Assembly (NCBI RefSeq): GCF_001457475.1
Contig: NZ_LN831029.1
Location: forward strand, 5,642,001-5,706,000
DNA length: 64,000 nt
Direction: 5' to 3'
Source: Achromobacter xylosoxidans
Lineage (GTDB): Bacteria > Pseudomonadota > Gammaproteobacteria > Burkholderiales > Burkholderiaceae_B
Made by a program: the position numbers and the translations under genes. The notes below the pieces were generated by a model, which saw nothing but the letters and a program-made list of their open reading frames with translations, was not told the DNA's origin and searched no databases. Every line of letters begins with the position of its first letter. Positions within the stretch are counted from its first letter, which is position 1. Shown piece by piece: positions 43,852-52,777 of the stretch.

Positions 43852-45120
43852 TCAGCCCTGGGCCTCGTCCAGCTCGGCCAGCACCTGCCGCGCGACGTCG
43901 TCGAGCGAGCGCCGCCGGTCCATCGCCACGCGCTGCAATTGATCGTGCGCGGCCTGCTCGCTCAGGCCGTGGCGGCTGACCAGCAACCACTTGGCGCGCT
44001 CGACCCGGCGCCGTTCCTCCAGCGCGCCGCGGGCCAGCGCCAGCGCATCGTCCGACTGCCGCAACCGCTGCGCCTGTTCCCGCATCAGGTCGAGGATGGA
44101 CCGTTCCATGGCCTCGCCCACGCCATCCTGCGGCGGCACGTCGAGAATACGGCCCTGCAACTGGAACAGCATGGCCGGCGCCGCGTCGCTGGCGTGGTCG
44201 GCGAAACGGCTGAGCAGCAGCCGGTGGTTGTCGAGCTCGGCGCGGGTCTCGACGATGCGGCGATGGCATTGCAGGGTCAGGGCCTCGGCCAGCAGGCTCT
44301 CGACCGCGCGCATGGCGTCGATGCGTTCGGTGCAAAGGCCGAACCACAGCTCGGCCAGGCCGGCGTCGACGCGTTCGGCCTCGGAGGTGCGCAGCGCCAT
44401 GTCGCGCAAGCGCAGCACCGGGCCGCCGCCCTGCTCCAGCCGCTCCCACGCCGCCAGCGCATCCGCGCCGGCGTACTGCGCGAAGCTGTCGAAGCAGCGC
44501 TTCTGCAGGTCCGCCAGTTCCAGCAGGCGGGCCTTTTGCGATTCGGTGAAGTAGCCGGCGGTGTAGCCCATGACGCCATAGGCGCGCTCCTGGCCGCACA
44601 GCTCCTTGCCCTGCATGAAATTGAGCAGCGCCACCAACAGGCGCGTGACGCCCGCGTCCAGCGACGAATCGGCGGCTTCGAACACCAGCGCGAACAGGCT
44701 GGCGATGAGCCGCGTGAAGACCGCGCCGGCGTCTTCCGCCGCCACGCGGCGGTCGCGGATGGCGCGGCGCGTGCGCGGCAGTTCGTCCAGGCGGTACAGC
44801 GCGTACGCGATACAGTTGAGCAGGCGCGCCTTGCCGGCGCTGCGGGTGGCATCCGGCTCCAGCCGGTCGAGGAAGCGGCGCACTTCTTCCTCGACCGCGC
44901 AGGCGTCGGAACTGAGGCCCGCCAGCGTCTGGCGAAGCGTTTCCTGGCCGCCGCACAGATACAGGTTGGACGAGCCCCGTTCCTTCTGCAGCACGTGCAC
45001 CAGCTTGCTGACCAGGGTGGCCAGTTCGCAGGTGGCCGCCAGGGCCTCGAGCCCGTGCAGCTCGCTGCGGCGCGCCGCCAGCAGGAAGCGCAGGGTCGAG
45101 GGCATGGCGTGTTCGGACAT
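43852..45120 (-). CDS. nasR: Nitrate-responsive antiterminator (NIT-ANTAR), NasR-like
   Basis: A 422-residue protein with a NIT nitrate-sensing domain (about residues 30-260; LVHVLQKERGSSNLYLCGG is the typical first helix) and a C-terminal ANTAR RNA-binding domain (about 350-415; LEERRRVERAKWLLVSRHGLSE, then AHDQLQRVAMDRRRSL). In Klebsiella, NasR binds nitrate and then a leader RNA hexaloop, preventing termination of the nas operon. Here the gene closes the nirBD operon. The start at 45120 has GAGG nine bases upstream; an ATG at 45129 and a GTG at 45135 are alternatives. Confidence 0.9.
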   Translation of the reverse strand: MSEHAMPSTLRFLLAARRSELHGLEALAATCELATLVSKLVHVLQKERGSSNLYLCGGQETLRQTLAGLSSDACAVEEEVRRFLDRLEPDATRSAGKARLLNCIAYALYRLDELPRTRRAIRDRRVAAEDAGAVFTRLIASLFALVFEAADSSLDAGVTRLLVALLNFMQGKELCGQERAYGVMGYTAGYFTESQKARLLELADLQKRCFDSFAQYAGADALAAWERLEQGGGPVLRLRDMALRTSEAERVDAGLAELWFGLCTERIDAMRAVESLLAEALTLQCHRRIVETRAELDNHRLLLSRFADHASDAAPAMLFQLQGRILDVPPQDGVGEAMERSILDLMREQAQRLRQSDDALALARGALEERRRVERAKWLLVSRHGLSEQAAHDQLQRVAMDRRRSLDDVARQVLAELDEAQG

Positions 45121-45131
45121 GGCGGGCATCC

Positions 45132-45536
45132 TCACCGCGCGGCGGGCGGCCGGACTTCAACGGCGTCGCCATTGAAGCGCACAGGCCAGGCCCGCAGCGA
45201 TTGTTCGGGGTATTCGACACAGGCGCCGTCGCGCAGCCGGAAGTGCTGCTTGTACAGCGGCGAGGCCACCACCAGCTCGCCGGCCAGGTGGCCGACGATG
45301 CCGCGGCCGATGACGTTGGCGCCCGATTTCGGGTCGCGGTTGTCGAGGGCGTAGAGCGTTTCGCCGGCAACGGCGGGCAGATAGAACAGGGCCACCTGGC
45401 GGCCGTCCACCAGCGCCACCACGCCGGAATCGGCGACCAGGTCGCGGCGGGTGCAGGCGGGGCGCCAAGACGCGGCGTCGGGCGTGGCGTCACGTGCGGT
45501 CTCCGGGCGCAGGGCAATCACGGCATTCGAACGCAT
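45132..45536 (-). CDS. nirD: Assimilatory nitrite reductase small subunit
   Basis: A 134-residue Rieske-fold protein, somewhat longer than E. coli NirD. Markers are [38 protein letters not shown] and [23 protein letters not shown]. The Rieske CxH...CxxH ligands are absent, as is usual for bacterial NirD. It works with NirB to reduce nitrite to ammonium with NADH. Its ATG overlaps the nirB stop by one base (TGATG), so the two are translationally coupled. Confidence 0.9.
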
Positions 45537-48088
45537 CAGGCAAGCTCCTCGGCGATGGGAATCACGCGCGCGGCCGGCGCCGGGCGCGGCTGGCCGCGCT
45601 CCTGCACGAAGCGGATGTCCGGATCCGCCGCGGCGTCGTTGACGAAGGTGCGGAAACGCTTGAGCTTTTCCGGGTCGGACAGGGCGTTGGCCCATTCGCA
45701 TTCATAGCGGTCCACCACCAGCTGCATCTGCGCCTCCAGTTCGGCGCCCAGCCCCAGGCTGTCGTCGATGACCACGGCCTTCAGGTAATCCAGGCCGCCT
45801 TCCAGCGACTCGCGCCAGACCGAGGTGCGCTGCAGCTTGTCGGCGGTGCGGATGTAGAACATCAGCAGGCGGTCGATGTAGCGGATCAGGGTGGCGTCAT
45901 CCAGGTCCTGGGCGAACAGTTCGGCGTGGCGCGGCCGCATGCCGCCGTTGCCGCACACGTACAGGTTCCAGCCGTTCTCGGTGGCGATGACGCCGATGTC
46001 CTTGCTTTGCGCCTCGGCGCATTCGCGGGTGCAGCCGGAGACCGCGAACTTGAGCTTGTGCGGGGCGCGCAGGCCCTTGTAGCGGTCTTCGATGCGCAGC
46101 GCCATGGCGACGCTGTCCTGCACGCCGTAGCGGCACCAGGTGCTGCCGACGCAGGACTTCACGGTGCGGGTGGACTTGCCGTAGGCGTGGCCGGTCTCGA
46201 AGCCGGCGGCGATCAGTTCGGCCCAGATGTCCGGCAGCTCGTGCAGCTGCGCGCCGAACAGGTCGATGCGCTGGCCGCCGGTGATCTTGGTGTAGAGCTT
46301 GTACTTCTTGGCCACCGCGCCGATCGCGATCAGGCCGTCGGGCGTGACCTCGCCGCCCGGGATGCGCGGCACCACCGAATAGGTGCCGTTCTTCTGCATG
46401 TTGGCCATGAAGGTGTCGTTGGTGTCCTGCAGCGGCACCAGGTGAGGATCCTGGATCGGGCGATTCCAGCACGAGGCCAGGATCGACGCCACGGTCGGCT
46501 TGCACAGGTCGCAGCCGACGTGGCCGCGGCCGTGGCGCGCCAGCAGTTCCTCGAACGATTCGATGCCCTGCACCCGCACGATGGCGTAGAGCTCCTGGCG
46601 GGTGTAGGCGAAGTGCTCGCACAGGCTCTTGTCCACCGCGACGCCGCGGCTCGCCAGTTCGTGTTCCACCACCTGCTTGAGCAGGGCCGCGCAGCCGCCG
46701 CAGCCGGTGGCGGCCTTGGTGCAGGCCTTGACGCCGGCGACGTCGGCGCAGCCGCCGTCCAGCGCGTCACAGATGGCGGCCTTGCTGACGTTGTGGCACG
46801 AACAGATGGTGGCGCTGGCCGGCAGCGCGCCGGCGCCCAGTACGGGCGCGCCCTGGCCAACGGGCAGGATCAGGCTGGCCGGGTCGGCCGGCGGCGCGAT
46901 GCCGTTCTGCGCGTATTGCAGCAGGGTGTCGTAGTAGCTGTTGTCGCCCACCAGCACCGCGCCCAGCACGCGCTTGCCGTCGGCCGACACCACCAGGCGG
47001 CGGTACGAGGCGCCGGCCTCGTCGATGTAGCGGTAGCTGCGCGCGCCCGGCGTGGCGCCGTGGGCGTCGCCGATCGAGCCCACGTCCACGCCCAGCAGCT
47101 TGAGCTTGGTCGACATGTCGGCGCCGGCGAACGGCGCGCCGGCCTCGCCGCAGAGGTCGGCGGCGACCACGCGCGCCATCTGGTAACCGGGCGCGACCAG
47201 GCCGAAGATGGCGCCGTCGAACGCGGCGCATTCGCCGATGGCGTAGATCGACGCATCGCTGCTGCGGCAGTGGCCGTCGACCGCGACGCCGCCGCGCTCG
47301 GCCACCGTCAGGCCCGCCTGGCGCGCCAGGCCGTCGCGCGGGCGGATGCCGGCCGAGAACACGATCAGGTCGGTCTCCAGCGGCGCGCCTTCGGCGAAGC
47401 GCATGCGGTAGCGGTATTGCGTGCCTTGCTTGATTTCCTGCGTGGCGCGCGACAGGTGCACGCCCACGCCCAGCGCCTCGATGCGCGCCTTGAGCGCCGC
47501 GCCGCCGGCCTCGTCCAGCTGCACCGGCATCAGGCGCGGCGCGAACTCGACCACGTGCGCCTCCAGCCCGAGCGACTTGAGCGCGTTGGCGGCCTCCAGG
47601 CCCAGCAGGCCGCCGCCCACCACCACGCCGCGCCGGGCGCCATCGGCCGCCGCGCGGATCTGGTCCAGGTCGTCGAGCGTGCGGTACACCAGGCGCGAGG
47701 CTCCTTCGGCGCCGGCGATCGGCGGCACGAAGGGATAGGAGCCGGTGGCCAGCACCAGCTTGTCGTAGCCATGGCTGCCGTCGGCCGTCACCACCTGGCG
47801 CGCGTGGCGGTCGATGCGCAGCACCGGCGCGCCCAGCCGCAGCGACAGGCCGGGCCGTTCATAGAACGCGGCATCGCTCATGGCCATCGACTCGGCGTCG
47901 CGCCCGCCCATGTACTCGGACAGGTGCACGCGATCGTAGGCGCGCCGGCTCTCTTCGCCGAACACCAGGATGCGGTAGCGCGCCAGCGCGCCGCGCTCGA
48001 TCAGTTGCTCGACGCAGTGATGGCCGACCATGCCGTTGCCGATGACGATCAGGGTCTGCATGGAAGTCGTGGAGGTCGCTGTGCTCAT
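45536..48088 (-). CDS. nirB: NAD(P)H nitrite reductase large subunit
   Basis: An 850-residue siroheme nitrite reductase. Domains in order are FAD/NAD(P) disulfide-reductase fold ([36 protein letters not shown]), a BFD-like [2Fe-2S] region ([21 protein letters not shown]), then sulfite/nitrite reductase ferredoxin-like and 4Fe-4S/siroheme halves ([12 protein letters not shown] and [11 protein letters not shown] carry the four Cys ligands). It reduces nitrite to ammonium in the cytoplasm. The start at 48088 gives a normal length; an internal ATG at 48061 is the alternative. Confidence 0.95.
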
Positions 48089-48116
48089 GGGTCTATCCAG
48101 GCTGGGCCGTTCGGGT

Positions 48117-48165
48117 TTCAAAAGACAAACGGCGCCCGGGACTGTTGGGTCCGGGCGCCGTTGCC
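48117..48165 (-). promoter_or_regulatory. nirB leader: ANTAR-type hexaloop overlapping a terminator
   Basis: On the minus strand ACGGCGCCCGG and CCGGGCGCCGT (48151-48161 and 48129-48139) form a perfect 11-bp stem followed by TTTGTCTTTTG, a terminator inside the leader. Just upstream and overlapping its 5' arm is GGC-AACGGC-GCC (48154-48165), a hexaloop with A at position 1 and G at position 4. The two folds exclude each other, as in NasR-controlled leaders. The hexaloop stem is short (3 bp). Confidence 0.65.
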
Positions 48166-48214
48166 TGCAATGCTTGCGTTGTCTGGCCGGACACGGGCCC
48201 GGTATGGCAATCAA

Positions 48215-48230
48215 AGCAATAAGCGTGCCA
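48215..48230 (-). promoter_or_regulatory. Sigma-54 promoter of nirBD-nasR
   Basis: TGGCACGCTTATTGCT on the minus strand matches the sigma-54 consensus with GG and GC exactly ten bases apart. Predicted transcription start is near 48204, giving a leader of about 116 nt. Confidence 0.87.
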
Positions 48231-48273
48231 TCCCGTTGACGCCCGCGCGGCGCGGCGCCGCCGCACCCGCCGC

Positions 48274-48309
48274 GCACCCAAACGGTTCCGCGCCGCACCA
48301 ATCCGGTGC
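48274..48309. promoter_or_regulatory. Tandem NtrC-type enhancer sites
   Basis: GCACC-AATCC-GGTGC (48295-48309) is a perfect match to the NtrC core GCACC-N5-GGTGC. GCACC-CAAAC-GGTTC (48274-48288) is the same with one mismatch. They are 21 bp apart, on one face of the helix, and lie roughly 70-105 bp from the predicted nirB start and 90-125 bp from the predicted nasA start. Confidence 0.78.
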
Positions 48310-48371
48310 GGCCGCGCACCACCGCGCACGCCGCCAGTCCCCGCGCCCCGCTGCCCGCCCGTGGCAAGCGA

Positions 48372-48388
48372 TTGGCATGGAACTTGCA
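48372..48388 (+). promoter_or_regulatory. Sigma-54 promoter of the nasA fusion
   Basis: TTGGCATGGAACTTGCA has GG (48374-48375) and GC (48386-48387) ten bases apart, matching the sigma-54 consensus. Predicted start is near 48399, giving a 95-nt leader. Confidence 0.85.
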
Positions 48389-48421
48389 TCGGCAGGACAT
48401 CGACCCGGCCGCGCCGGGAAC

Positions 48422-48483
48422 CAGGGCAATGGCGCCCTGCCCGCCCGGCCCGCTGGCCGCGCAGGCAGGGCGCCTTCTTTTTT
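48422..48483 (+). promoter_or_regulatory. nasA leader: ANTAR-type hexaloop overlapping a terminator
   Basis: CAGGGC-AATGGC-GCCCTG (48422-48439) is a perfect 6-bp hairpin with a hexaloop having A1 and G4. GGCGCCCTGCC (48431-48441) pairs perfectly with GGCAGGGCGCC (48464-48474), followed by TTCTTTTTT: a strong terminator. The two structures share 48431-48439 and cannot coexist. The GGAG ribosome site begins right after the T tract. A CCCGGC/GCCGGG stem at 48404-48418 precedes them in the place of a first hairpin but has a 3-nt loop. Confidence 0.8.
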
Positions 48484-48493
48484 GGAGCCGAGC

Positions 48494-51400
48494 ATGAGCG
48501 GCACGCCGCGCACCGTGGACACCGTCTGCCCCTACTGTGGCGTGGGCTGCGGCATGACCCTGCACGTGGAACGGGAACAGGTGGTGAAGATCACCGGCAA
48601 CCGCGACCATCCCAGCAACTTCGGCCGCCTCTGCACCAAGGGGTCCTCGGCCCACATCGCCCTGCGCCAGTCGGGACGGCTGGAACACGCCTACGTGCGC
48701 GCCCGCCGCGGGCAGGACCTGGCGCCGCGGCCGATGGCGGACACCCTGCGCGACACCGCCACGCGCTTGCGCGCCATCATCGATGCGCATGGCCCGGACG
48801 CGGTGTCGCTGTACGTGTCGGGGCAGATGTCGATCGAGGCCCAATACCTGGCCAACAAACTGGCCAAGGGCTTCATCGGCACCAACAACATTGAATCGAA
48901 TTCGAGGCTGTGCATGGCCAGCGCCGCCAGCGGCTACAAGCTGTCGCTGGGCGCCGACGGACCGCCCGGCTCGTACCAGGACATCGACCGCGCCGACCTG
49001 TTCCTGGTGATCGGGGCCAACATGGCCGATTGCCATCCGATCCTGTACCTGCGCATGATGGAACGGGTCAAGGCCGGCGCGCGCCTGATCGTGGTCGACC
49101 CGCGCCGCACCACCACCGCCGAGAAGGCGCACCTGCACCTGGCGATCCGGCCGGGCACCGACCTGGCGCTGCTCAACGGCCTGCTGCACCTGCTGCACCA
49201 GGCCGGCAAGACCGACGCGGCCTTCATCGCCGCCCACACCGACGGCTGGGAGGCGATGCCGGACTTCCTGCGCGACTACGCGCCCGAGCGGGTCGAGGCG
49301 CTGACCGGCATCCCCGCCGCGCAACTGCGCCAGGCCGCCGACTGGATCGGCGCGGCGCCCGAATGGATGAGCTGCTGGACCATGGGGCTGAACCAGAGCA
49401 CCCACGGCACCTGGAACACCAACGCGCTGTGCAACCTGCACCTGGCCACCGGCCGCATCTGCCGGCCCGGCAGCGGCCCGTTCTCGCTGACCGGCCAACC
49501 CAACGCCATGGGCGGGCGCGAGATGGGCTACATGGGTCCCGGCCTGCCGGGCCAGCGCAGCGTGCTGTCGGCCGCCGACCGCGCCTTTGTCGAGGCGCGC
49601 TGGGGCGTGCCGGCCGGCACGCTGCATACGCGGCTCGGGCAAGGCACCATCGACCTGTTCCAGCGCATGGCGGCGGGCGAGGTCAAGGCCTGCTGGATCA
49701 TCTGCACCAACCCGGTGGCCAGCGTGGCCAACCGCGCCAATGTGGTGGCGGGGCTGCGGGCGGCGGAACTGGTGATCGCGCAGGACGCCTACCTGGACAC
49801 CGAGACCAACCGCTACGCCGACATCCTGCTGCCGGGCGCGCTGTGGGCCGAGGCCGAGGGCGTGATGGTCAATTCCGAACGCACCCTGACGCTGATGCCA
49901 CAGGCCGTGCCGCCGCCCGGGGACGCGCTGCCCGACTGGCGCATCATCGCCGGCGTGGCCTGCGAGATGGGCTACGGCCACGCGTTCCAGTACGCCAGCG
50001 CGGCCGAGGTGTTCGACGAGATCGCCGCCTTCGCCAACCCCGCCACCGGCTACGACCTGCGCGGCGCCAGCCATGCGCGGCTGCGCGAGACGCCGCTGCA
50101 ATGGCCCTGCGCGCGCGCCGACGGGCCGGACCGCAACCCGATCCGCTATCTCAACGACGGCGTCAGCCAGCCATCGCTCCTGGCGGACGACGGCGCCCGC
50201 CCGCGCCTGGCGTTCGCCACCGCCAACGGCCGCGCGCGGTTCCACGCGCGGCCGCACGTGGATCCGGCCGAGCTGCCCGACGCCGACTATCCCATGGTGC
50301 TCAACACGGGGCGGCTGCAGCATCAATGGCATACGCTGACCAAGACCGGCAAGGTGCCGATGCTGAACAAGCTCAATCCCGCGCCATTCGTGGAGATTCA
50401 CCCGGACGACGCGGCAACGCTGGGCATCGGCGCTGGCGACGGCGTCGAGATCCGCTCGCGCCGCGGCCGCGCGGTGCTGCCCGCCGTGGTCACCGACCGG
50501 GTGCGGCCGGGGAACTGCTTCGCGTCCATGCACTGGAACGACGTGTATGGCGATGAACTCTGCATCAACGCCGTCACCAGCGATGCCGTCGACCCGGTGT
50601 CGCAGCAGCCGGAACTGAAGTTCTGCGCGGTGGCGCTGTGCCGCGTGGCGGCGCCCGCGGACAGGACGGCGAACGACGCGGAACCAGCCGCGTTGGCCAT
50701 GGCGGCGACGGCGGCCGACAGCGTTGCCGGCTTGCTGAGGGCGCACGCGGTTCCGAGGCTGACGGCGGCCGGCGGCGCCGCCCCCGCCGAGGCCATGGCC
50801 GCGCTGCTCGGTCTGACGAATGGCGGCGGGCCGCCCGCGCTGGATGCGCGCCAGCGCCATTACCTGTCGGGCTTTCTCAACGGCCTGCGGCAGGCCGGCG
50901 GCGCCCCCGGCGTGCCGGAGCTACCCGTCCACGCGCCTTTCGACGAGGCAATCCGCCTGTGGCTCAACGGCCTGCTGCATGGCCTGTACAGCCGCGCACC
51001 GCTGCCGCTGGCGATCACGCCTGGCGCCGACGCGGGGGAGGCCACCGTCCGCATCATCGGCCCGCGCCCGCGCGTGACGCTGCTGTGGGCCTCGCAGACC
51101 GGCAATGCGGAATCGCTGGTTGAACGCAGCGCCAGCGCGCTGGCCGCGGCCGGCTTCGAGTTGCGCACCGCATGCATGGCCGACTATGCGATCGACGCCC
51201 TCGCTCGCACGCAGTACCTGCTGCTGATCACCAGCACCTTCGGCGACGGCGACGCGCCGGACAACGGCCAGGGCCTGTGGCGCGCCCTGTCGGCCACCGA
51301 TGCGCCGCGGCTGGCATCGCTGCGCTATGCGGTGCTGGCGCTGGGCGACAGCAACTATGACGCCTTCTGCGGCCACGGCCGCCGGCTCGACCAGCGGCTG

Positions 51401-52777
51401 GCGCAACTGGGCGCGCAGCCCTTGCTGGCGCGGGTCGATTGCGATACGGACTACGAGGCGCCGGCCGACGCCTGGCTGGAAAATGCCATTGCCACCATCC
51501 ATGCGGCCGAGGCCGATCAGCATGGCCATCCGGCCACTGGCCTGATGCCGGACGACATCGCGGCGGCGCTGGCGGCCGACGCCCCGCCCACCGTGGCAGT
51601 CCGCGTCGCGCCGCCCGAGCCGCCCGAGCCGCTCGCCCCGCCCGCCGGCGCGCGCCCCGCGCCGCCCTCCCGGACGCGTCCGGCCCCCGCGCGCCTGATC
51701 GGCAACCAGCGGCTGAACACCCGCGGCGACAAGGACACGCGAGCGCTGGCGCTGGACATCGCCGACACGGGACTGGACTACGAGGCCGGCGACGCCCTCG
51801 GCGTATGGCCGCTGAACTGTCCCGAGCTGGTGGAAGAACTGCTGGCGCAGGCCGGCCTGTCGGGCGATGCCGTGGCCAGCGTGCCGGGCGCCGGCGACAT
51901 GCCGCTGGCCCGGGCGCTGTCCGCCCATTACGAAATCGCGCGACCGGCACCGGCCGCGCTGGCGTTGATCGCCGAGCACAGCCGCGATCCCGGCCTGCGG
52001 CAATTGCTGGCAGAGGAGCGCCGCGCCGACCTGCGCCAATGGCTGTGGGGCAAGCAACTGGCCGACGTGCTGCACGCGTTTCCAGTGACACTGCCAGCGC
52101 AGGCGTGGCTGGGCGCGCTCAAGCGCTTGCAGCCGCGCCTGTACTCCATCGCCTCCAGCCCCAAGGCGCATCCTGGCGAAGTCCACCTGACCGTGTCCGC
52201 CGTGCGCTACGACAACGGCAGACGGCAACGCAAGGGCGTCTCGTCGACCTTCCTGGCCGACCGCGCCGGCGAGGCCGACGTGCCGGTCTTCGTGCAGGAA
52301 GCCAGCCATTTCCGTCCGCCGCGCCAGGGCGACACGCCGATGATCATGGTGGGACCCGGCACCGGCGTGGCGCCGTTCCGCGCCTTTCTGCAGGAACGGC
52401 GGGCGCGCGGCGACCGCGGCCGCAACTGGCTGTTCTTCGGCGAGCGGCACGCGGCCAGCGATTTCTACTATCGCGACGAACTGCAGGCGCTGCGCGACGA
52501 CGGCCTGCTGACGCGGCTGGACCTGGCGTTCTCACGCGACCAGGCCGCCAAGGTCTACGTGCAGGACCGCATGCGCGAGCATGGCGCGCAGCTATGGGCA
52601 TGGTTGCAGGAGGGCGCGCATTTCTATGTCTGCGGCGATGCCGCGCAAATGGCCCGCGACGTGGACGCCACGCTCAGGCGGGTGGTGGCGGAACACGGCG
52701 GCATGGACGCCGACGCCGCCGCGGCCTACCTGGCGCGCATGACGGCGGACAAGCGTTATGTGCGCGACGTGTATTGA
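48494..52777 (+). CDS. nasA: Assimilatory nitrate reductase fused to CysJ-like flavoprotein
   Basis: A 1427-residue fusion. Residues 1-740 are a molybdopterin nitrate reductase: 4Fe-4S ligands Cys12, Cys15, Cys19 and Cys47, the probable Mo ligand Cys140 in [13 protein letters not shown], and [12 protein letters not shown]. After a linker of about 110 residues, residues 860-1427 match sulfite reductase flavoprotein alpha: FMN flavodoxin ([30 protein letters not shown]), FAD domain ([10 protein letters not shown]) and NADPH site ([18 protein letters not shown]). NADPH electrons can thus reach molybdenum within one chain. The start ATG at 48494 follows GGAG. Confidence 0.94.

Follow-up and report, generated by a model that had tools for sequence, protein, structure and literature searches.

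Divergent nir and nas operons of Achromobacter xylosoxidans with a probable shared NtrC-type enhancer and a predicted ANTAR-type attenuator in each leader

Double control by the Ntr system and an ANTAR protein is already known from Klebsiella nasF and Pseudomonas nirBD. According to the accessible parts of two papers (PMC5424462, PMC3369936), the nasF operon of Klebsiella oxytoca is subject both to the Ntr system and to NasR antitermination in the nasF leader. The loop defined for ANTAR targets is a hexaloop with A1 and G4 (accessible text of PMC3369931 and PMC3369936), and SELEX with Klebsiella NasR selects C:G-closed hexaloops with these residues (accessible text of PMC7496416). The Pseudomonas nirBD leader, NalA, is described in the available part of a review (PMC12830290) as combining a sigma-54, NtrC-dependent promoter with antitermination by NasT. 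Divergent sigma-54 operons under a common activator are exemplified by orp1 and orp2 of Desulfovibrio (PMC3897727, accessible part).

The window, a stretch of 64,000 nucleotides from A. xylosoxidans (positions 5642001-5706000 of a single 6.81 Mb contig), contains a nir operon and a nasA-like fusion gene transcribed in opposite directions:

45536..48088, minus strand: nirB, nitrite reductase large subunit (Pfam and NCBIfam)
45132..45545, minus strand: nirD, nitrite reductase small subunit, overlapping the nirB end if the start chosen here is used
43852..45135, minus strand: nasR, NIT and ANTAR protein, presumed nitrate/nitrite-responsive antiterminator (Pfam)
48494..52777, plus strand: fusion of a molybdopterin oxidoreductase with a CysJ-like flavoprotein reductase, presumed assimilatory nitrate reductase (nasA fusion)

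As in the partial descriptions of Klebsiella nasF, the arrangement would allow Ntr activation to be followed by the action of a nitrate-responsive NIT-ANTAR protein, NasR, on a leader terminator. Klebsiella has one operon, nasFEDCBA, whose leader bears two A1/G4 hexaloops, whereas the window has two divergent leaders around one enhancer in place of a single nas operon with one leader; here, unlike in Klebsiella, nasR lies inside its target operon and each leader has one canonical hexaloop. As described for Pseudomonas nirBD in the part of the review available, a leader probably under ANTAR antitermination lies behind a sigma-54/NtrC-type promoter. The Pseudomonas system relies on NasS-NasT, whereas the window has NasR and, in addition, the divergent nasA fusion on the same enhancer. 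The likeness to orp1/orp2, as far as the accessible text goes, lies in two outward sigma-54 promoters that would answer to one enhancer-binding protein; the activator is different there, and leader attenuation goes unmentioned in the accessible part of PMC3897727. None of the matches listed (titles and beginnings of abstracts on Achromobacter nitrate assimilation and NasR leaders, with few subscription papers) described the doubled divergent arrangement. The less expected features are the divergent doubled leader control, the presence of nasR within its own target operon and the one-loop leaders.

With the starts chosen here, nirB, nirD and nasR follow one another with overlaps of a few bases; a GTG start would give nasR a 4-nt overlap with the nirD stop. 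Pfam identifies both domains of NasR, NIT and ANTAR (E 5.8e-46 and 1.4e-17); the protein matches no NCBIfam family and its close relatives are from Achromobacter. The sequence before nasR gave no sigma-70-type promoter in a simple scan. On the other side of the 405-bp intergenic region lies the nasA fusion (1427 aa). Each of the 25 NCBIfam models listed for it scores under its cut-off, and the fit is better as formate dehydrogenase alpha (525.6 bits) than as NasC (458.3 bits). Since the fusion passes none of these cut-offs, nitrate is proposed as its substrate from the gene neighbourhood. The gene for NasR is also found near nirB at loci without a nasA-fusion match. At one locus without a nearby nasA fusion, L011, an FNT-type nirC-like transporter is encoded between nirB and nasR, and in L011 and L030 a protein resembling a PP2C phosphatase/kinase is encoded in the same interval. 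The A. xylosoxidans genome has two further ANTAR proteins (L228, L229), each beside a gene for an AmiC-like binding protein; they look AmiR-like rather than NasT.

An earlier note on this DNA had proposed two outward-facing sigma-54 promoters in the intergenic region, with transcription starts near 48204 and 48399. The elements are:

48214..48230, minus strand: nir sigma-54 element TGGCACG-CTTA-TTGCTT, conserved in 7 species
48373..48389, plus strand: nas sigma-54 element TGGCATG-GAAC-TTGCAT, conserved in 7 species

Both match TGGCAYGN4TTGCWT exactly, a pattern present at 14 places in the 6.81 Mb genome versus 0 for its backwards form, and the predicted starts, 48205 for nir and ~48398-48399 for nas, agree with those proposed. 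Among the remaining matches are those upstream of glnA, glnK-amtB, an amino-acid transporter gene, urtA, nrtA and rpoN, the gene names being our reading of the translations. The element near rpoN (L086, G000:C1:3061370-3061386) is an exact match just upstream of the gene, which suggests that rpoN is autoregulated. In front of all 27 nirB leaders examined (see below), a sigma-54 element was found with 0-2 mismatches.

Between the two elements lie sequences resembling NtrC binding sites:

48295..48309, no strand assigned: perfect NtrC-type palindrome GCACC-AATCC-GGTGC, 64 bp to the nir and 63 bp to the nas element
48274..48288, no strand assigned: second NtrC-type site GCACC-CAAAC-GGTTC, 1 mismatch in 10, the two sites starting 21 bp apart
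48316..48330, no strand assigned: possible third half-site (GCACC...), weak, with CGCACC here in 7 of 7 species

The 21-bp spacing of two GCACC-N5-GGTGC-type sites noticed earlier was confirmed; the sites are unequal, one being perfect and the other mismatched. GCACC-N5-GGTGC occurs at 69 places in 6.81 Mb (about 1 per 99 kb; 10 for the backwards control), so that by our arithmetic the chance of a palindrome falling within the 142-bp gap between the sigma-54 elements is ~0.0014. The proposal that one NtrC cluster serves both promoters could be examined in the seven species with a nir/nas gap (the window and 6 of 47 loci with NasR relatives), a comparison that the earlier note had recommended. 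The palindrome is present in all seven, with 1 mismatch in L008, and stands midway, 63-64 bp from each sigma-54 element, in six; in the exception, L022, it lies 53 bp from the nas and 88 bp from the nir element. The 21-bp offset of the weaker site is likewise kept in all seven; its mismatches number 1 in the window, L004, L005 and L006, but 2 in L003, L008 and L022.

Elsewhere in the genome, four of the 14 sigma-54 elements, those of glnA and glnK-amtB included, are preceded at 53-54 bp by a perfect palindrome; with the nir and nas elements counted in, 6 of the 14 have a palindrome within 100 bp, against ~0.014 expected by chance (our arithmetic). The site at nir/nas is ~10 bp further from its promoters than that at glnA; this extra distance, near one helical turn, fits the same DNA face without proving it. 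A single gene, ~2.7 kb past the glnA promoter, exceeds the curated ntrC cut-off (672.2 vs 558.6 bits), which several further NtrC-family regulators fail to reach. Since the same palindrome is found at glnA and glnK-amtB, one gene in the genome passes the ntrC cut-off and the midway position is conserved, the sequence data support well a single NtrC enhancer common to the nir and nas promoters.

By itself, such a shared enhancer is ordinary, since a similar divergent layout is seen at nrtA/nasT in two Achromobacter genomes and at urtA in this genome. In the former (L232 in G020, L233 in G037), the nrtA operon and nasT diverge from sigma-54 elements on both sides, that of nasT with 2 mismatches; NtrC-like sites lie in the interval, and nasT is followed by a cysG-like gene. 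As at nir/nas, an ANTAR leader is present, with NasT instead of NasR and both hexaloops in the nrtA leader. In the window's genome, exact sigma-54 elements diverge a second time at urtA, a urea transporter gene (L231, G000:C1:5536300-5540500), where one NtrC-like site with 1 mismatch lies ~100 bp from either element. The nir/nas locus differs from the single Klebsiella operon, a contrast drawn in the earlier note, in its two divergent leaders; the doubled architecture is not unique to it.

Downstream from each predicted start, the following elements were recognized:

48100..48205, minus strand: predicted nir leader RNA, from the start to past the terminator
48154..48165, minus strand: nir ANTAR-type P2 hairpin GGC-AACGGC-GCC (C:G-closed hexaloop with A1 and G4)
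48119..48165, minus strand: nir terminator-like hairpin and U-rich tract, overlapping P2
48399..48493, plus strand: predicted nas leader RNA
48425..48436, plus strand: nas ANTAR-type P2 hairpin GGC-AAUGGC-GCC
48430..48482, plus strand: nas terminator-like hairpin and U tract, overlapping P2

Each leader thus has a C:G-closed A1/G4 hexaloop overlapping a terminator-like structure, as looked for in an ANTAR target. The hairpins preceding the U-rich tracts are strong (folding z: nas -3.1, nir -2.5). A simple terminator scan listed neither of them; it returned 2 terminator-like sites in the region versus a shuffle mean of 3.0, hence no excess. Taken alone the P2 motif is weak: a C:G-closed A1/G4 hexaloop appears in ~8% of shuffles of each leader, and GGCAAYGGCGCC, found at 52 places genome-wide and 12 in the control, was rejected as an unspecific genome-wide finder. 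The case therefore rests on position and conservation.

Conservation was assessed in 27 nirB leaders, those of the window and of 26 of the 47 loci with NasR relatives. Left out were loci in which sequence upstream of nirB was missing (L007, L025), which had no nirB match (L029, L033, L038) or only distant (37-44%) nirB matches (L034-L037, L040, L044-L049), and distant loci inspected singly (L032, L039, L041-L043); of the last, L032, L039 and L043 have a P2-like hairpin before nirB and L041 and L042 have none there. P2 lies 39-46 nt from the predicted start in all 27 nirB leaders. Exactly one C:G-closed A1/G4 hexaloop is present in each of these and in each of the 7 nas leaders, and the nas P2 of all seven species have the GGCAANGGCGCC core in common. 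Two alignments were analysed, one of 23 of the 27 nir leaders (A1) and one of 13 nir and 6 nas leaders (A3); GGCAANGGCGCCC is unchanged in all 19 aligned nir and nas leaders. In the 3' arm of the hairpin, the partner of loop position 3 changes in step with it (A-U 15, C-G 5, U-G 3; n=23). The covariation score of 0.133 (0.056 in shuffles) was reached by none of 500 shuffles, and the cell count (8 vs 2.8) together with 100% pairing was matched by none; a single pair shows two-sided change, which 494 of the 500 shuffles also gave. Since position 3 changes along with its partner, terminator pairing is kept while A1, A2 and G4 stay fixed.

A model of the leaders (R1) ranked the nir (65.9 bits) and nas (51.7 bits) leaders, both of them training sequences, ahead of the next place in the genome at 24.0 bits. 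Nine distant NasR loci had played no part in building the model. Five of them (L042, L032 twice, L049, L041, L033) held matches, six in all at E <= 1.2e-4, upstream of nrtA-, nirC- or nirB-like genes; at E <= 0.05 no match was obtained in L029, L034, L039 and L043.

What the analysis establishes are the sequence elements, their conservation, the gene order and the protein domains. Together they make it quite probable, in our judgement, that the locus consists of two AND gates, back to back around one enhancer, each with NtrC (nitrogen shortage) and NasR (nitrate or nitrite) as inputs, the latter acting on the leader. Under nitrogen limitation, phosphorylated NtrC would bind the shared midway site, from which it could activate both sigma-54 promoters. 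No more than ~90 nt from its start, each transcript would then run into an intrinsic terminator located in the leader. Upon binding of nitrate or nitrite to the NIT domain of NasR, the ANTAR domain would bind the P2 hexaloop hairpin; because P2 shares bases with the terminator stem, NasR-bound P2 would stop the terminator from forming and allow RNA polymerase to proceed into nirB and nasA. Because nasR closes the nir operon, it is itself downstream of the terminator that its product would relieve, and read-through should raise NasR levels. This position and the failure to find a sigma-70-type promoter make positive feedback on NasR likely; basal read-through would have to supply the first NasR.

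The earlier note had postulated that nitrogen limitation switches the two operons together. The shared enhancer is consistent with a joint switch; limitation alone should not suffice, because in both leaders a terminator-like hairpin overlaps an ANTAR hairpin and the operon encodes a NIT-ANTAR protein. The clear promoters and NtrC site would also be expected if NtrC and sigma-54 alone switched both operons and the leader hairpins had no regulatory role. That idea sits poorly with the retention of P2 in 27 of 27 nirB and 7 of 7 nas leaders, with covariation, and with the presence of the NIT-ANTAR gene inside the nir operon, and we regard it as very unlikely. It also seems unlikely, if slightly less so, that NasR acts on the nir leader only, with the nas leader attenuated constitutively or under another factor. 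Such a division would account for an ACAA box found before P2 in all 27 nir leaders (17 nt away in 23, 18 in three, 19 in one) and, by eye, missing from the window's nas leader, as well as for the loci mentioned above in which nasR accompanies nirB without a nasA-fusion match. Against it stands the nas P2 hairpin itself, GGC-AAUGGC-GCC, with its invariant core in 7 of 7 species.

The identity of the activator can be questioned too, given that several NtrC-family regulators match below the cut-off: an NtrX-type protein or an NtrC-family paralogue might drive both promoters. We hold this to be the least probable of these alternatives, since the palindrome is the same as at glnA and glnK-amtB, at near-identical spacing, and a sole protein passes the ntrC cut-off. 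The preferred reading remains that of NtrC and NasR acting in succession on both operons.

A third leader of the same kind appears to precede the nrtA operon, which in the window's genome is divergent from cysG:

G000:C1 near 5457800, minus strand: nrtA leader with a sigma-54 element, a hairpin GGAAC-AACGAC-GUUCC and, with nine U at its end, a terminator-like hairpin

The sole NtrC-like site (<=1 mismatch) within 170 bp upstream sits 155 bp away. The nrtA leader is missing from the matches of the R1 genome search, so the three leaders are alike in design and not in sequence.

NasR targets described in the literature bear two A1/G4 hexaloops. The upstream one, P1 (C:G-closed), is absent from all 27 nir and 7 nas leaders, which counts against the proposed NasR mechanism. 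In a search for a canonical P1 with stems of at least 3 pairs, both C:G-closed and unrestricted, the only extra loop in nir or nas leaders was in L014, T:A-closed and overlapping P2. Two candidates picked out by eye were also dropped: a long-range GUCCGG/CCGGAC pairing around P2 in the window's clade, absent from other leaders, and a short hairpin with a WGCW loop at the P1 place, whose pairs fail in several species. As a positive control, both hexaloops were found in the nrt leaders of 19 of 19 genomes with an adjacent nasT; P2 only was found in 8 of 8 genomes without one, the window's included, nasT having been checked in these only beside nrtA. The pattern was fitted by 27 of 43 genomes; the remaining 16 were unclassified in this comparison, and one of them, G019, has P2 only. 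By eye, a hairpin with a different loop persists at the P1 place in the eight genomes, and the nrt leader of the window's genome has no ACAA on its P1 side. The nasA fusion and close NasR relatives are found in all eight, so that the P1 loop may have been lost in a single evolutionary event. Where the nrt leader has two loops, the nir leader of the same genome has a single one, with ACAA 17 nt before P2 (11 of 11 readable, from 12 regions fetched, nirB not being found in L278). One genome without a NasR match, G020, has a textbook two-hexaloop ANTAR element in its nrtA leader (L158, L245; AACGGC then AACGAC).

These patterns point tentatively to a second kind of ANTAR target, in which P2 alone is recognized and the ACAA of nirB leaders replaces P1, two-loop nrt leaders answering to NasT and one-loop nir leaders to NasR; we consider this possible, though somewhat short of probable. 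Accordingly read, the nrt leader of the window's clade has lost the P1 loop residues and kept P2, as if passed to NasR. Distant NasR loci with two-loop nrtA-type leaders (L033, L034, L049) argue against a simple rule by which NasR uses one loop. If the one-loop reading is true, NasT and NasR would be kept on separate targets in genomes holding both. The contrast within the genus (two loops beside nasT, one at nirBD-nasR, and loss of the P1 loop where nasT is not a neighbour) constitutes a natural experiment bearing on how ANTAR proteins distinguish RNAs and on the generality of the two-hexaloop rule. The nir/nas locus itself offers a testable circuit, in which one enhancer would serve two promoters, an RNA brake would follow each of these, and the regulator is encoded in an operon that it would control. 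Such a circuit could make nitrate induction switch-like.

Comparison with Rfam placed the narK RNA (RF03032) at 48129-48199 on the minus strand, sub-threshold at 15.1 bits with a gathering cut-off of 43.2; Scr6925, sX2 and other matches, far under their cut-offs, were taken as chance. A literature search on the narK RNA motif yielded nothing useful. The RF03032 consensus contains CC-AACGGC-GG, a C:G-closed A1/G4 hexaloop, so the narK RNA family may itself be an ANTAR target.
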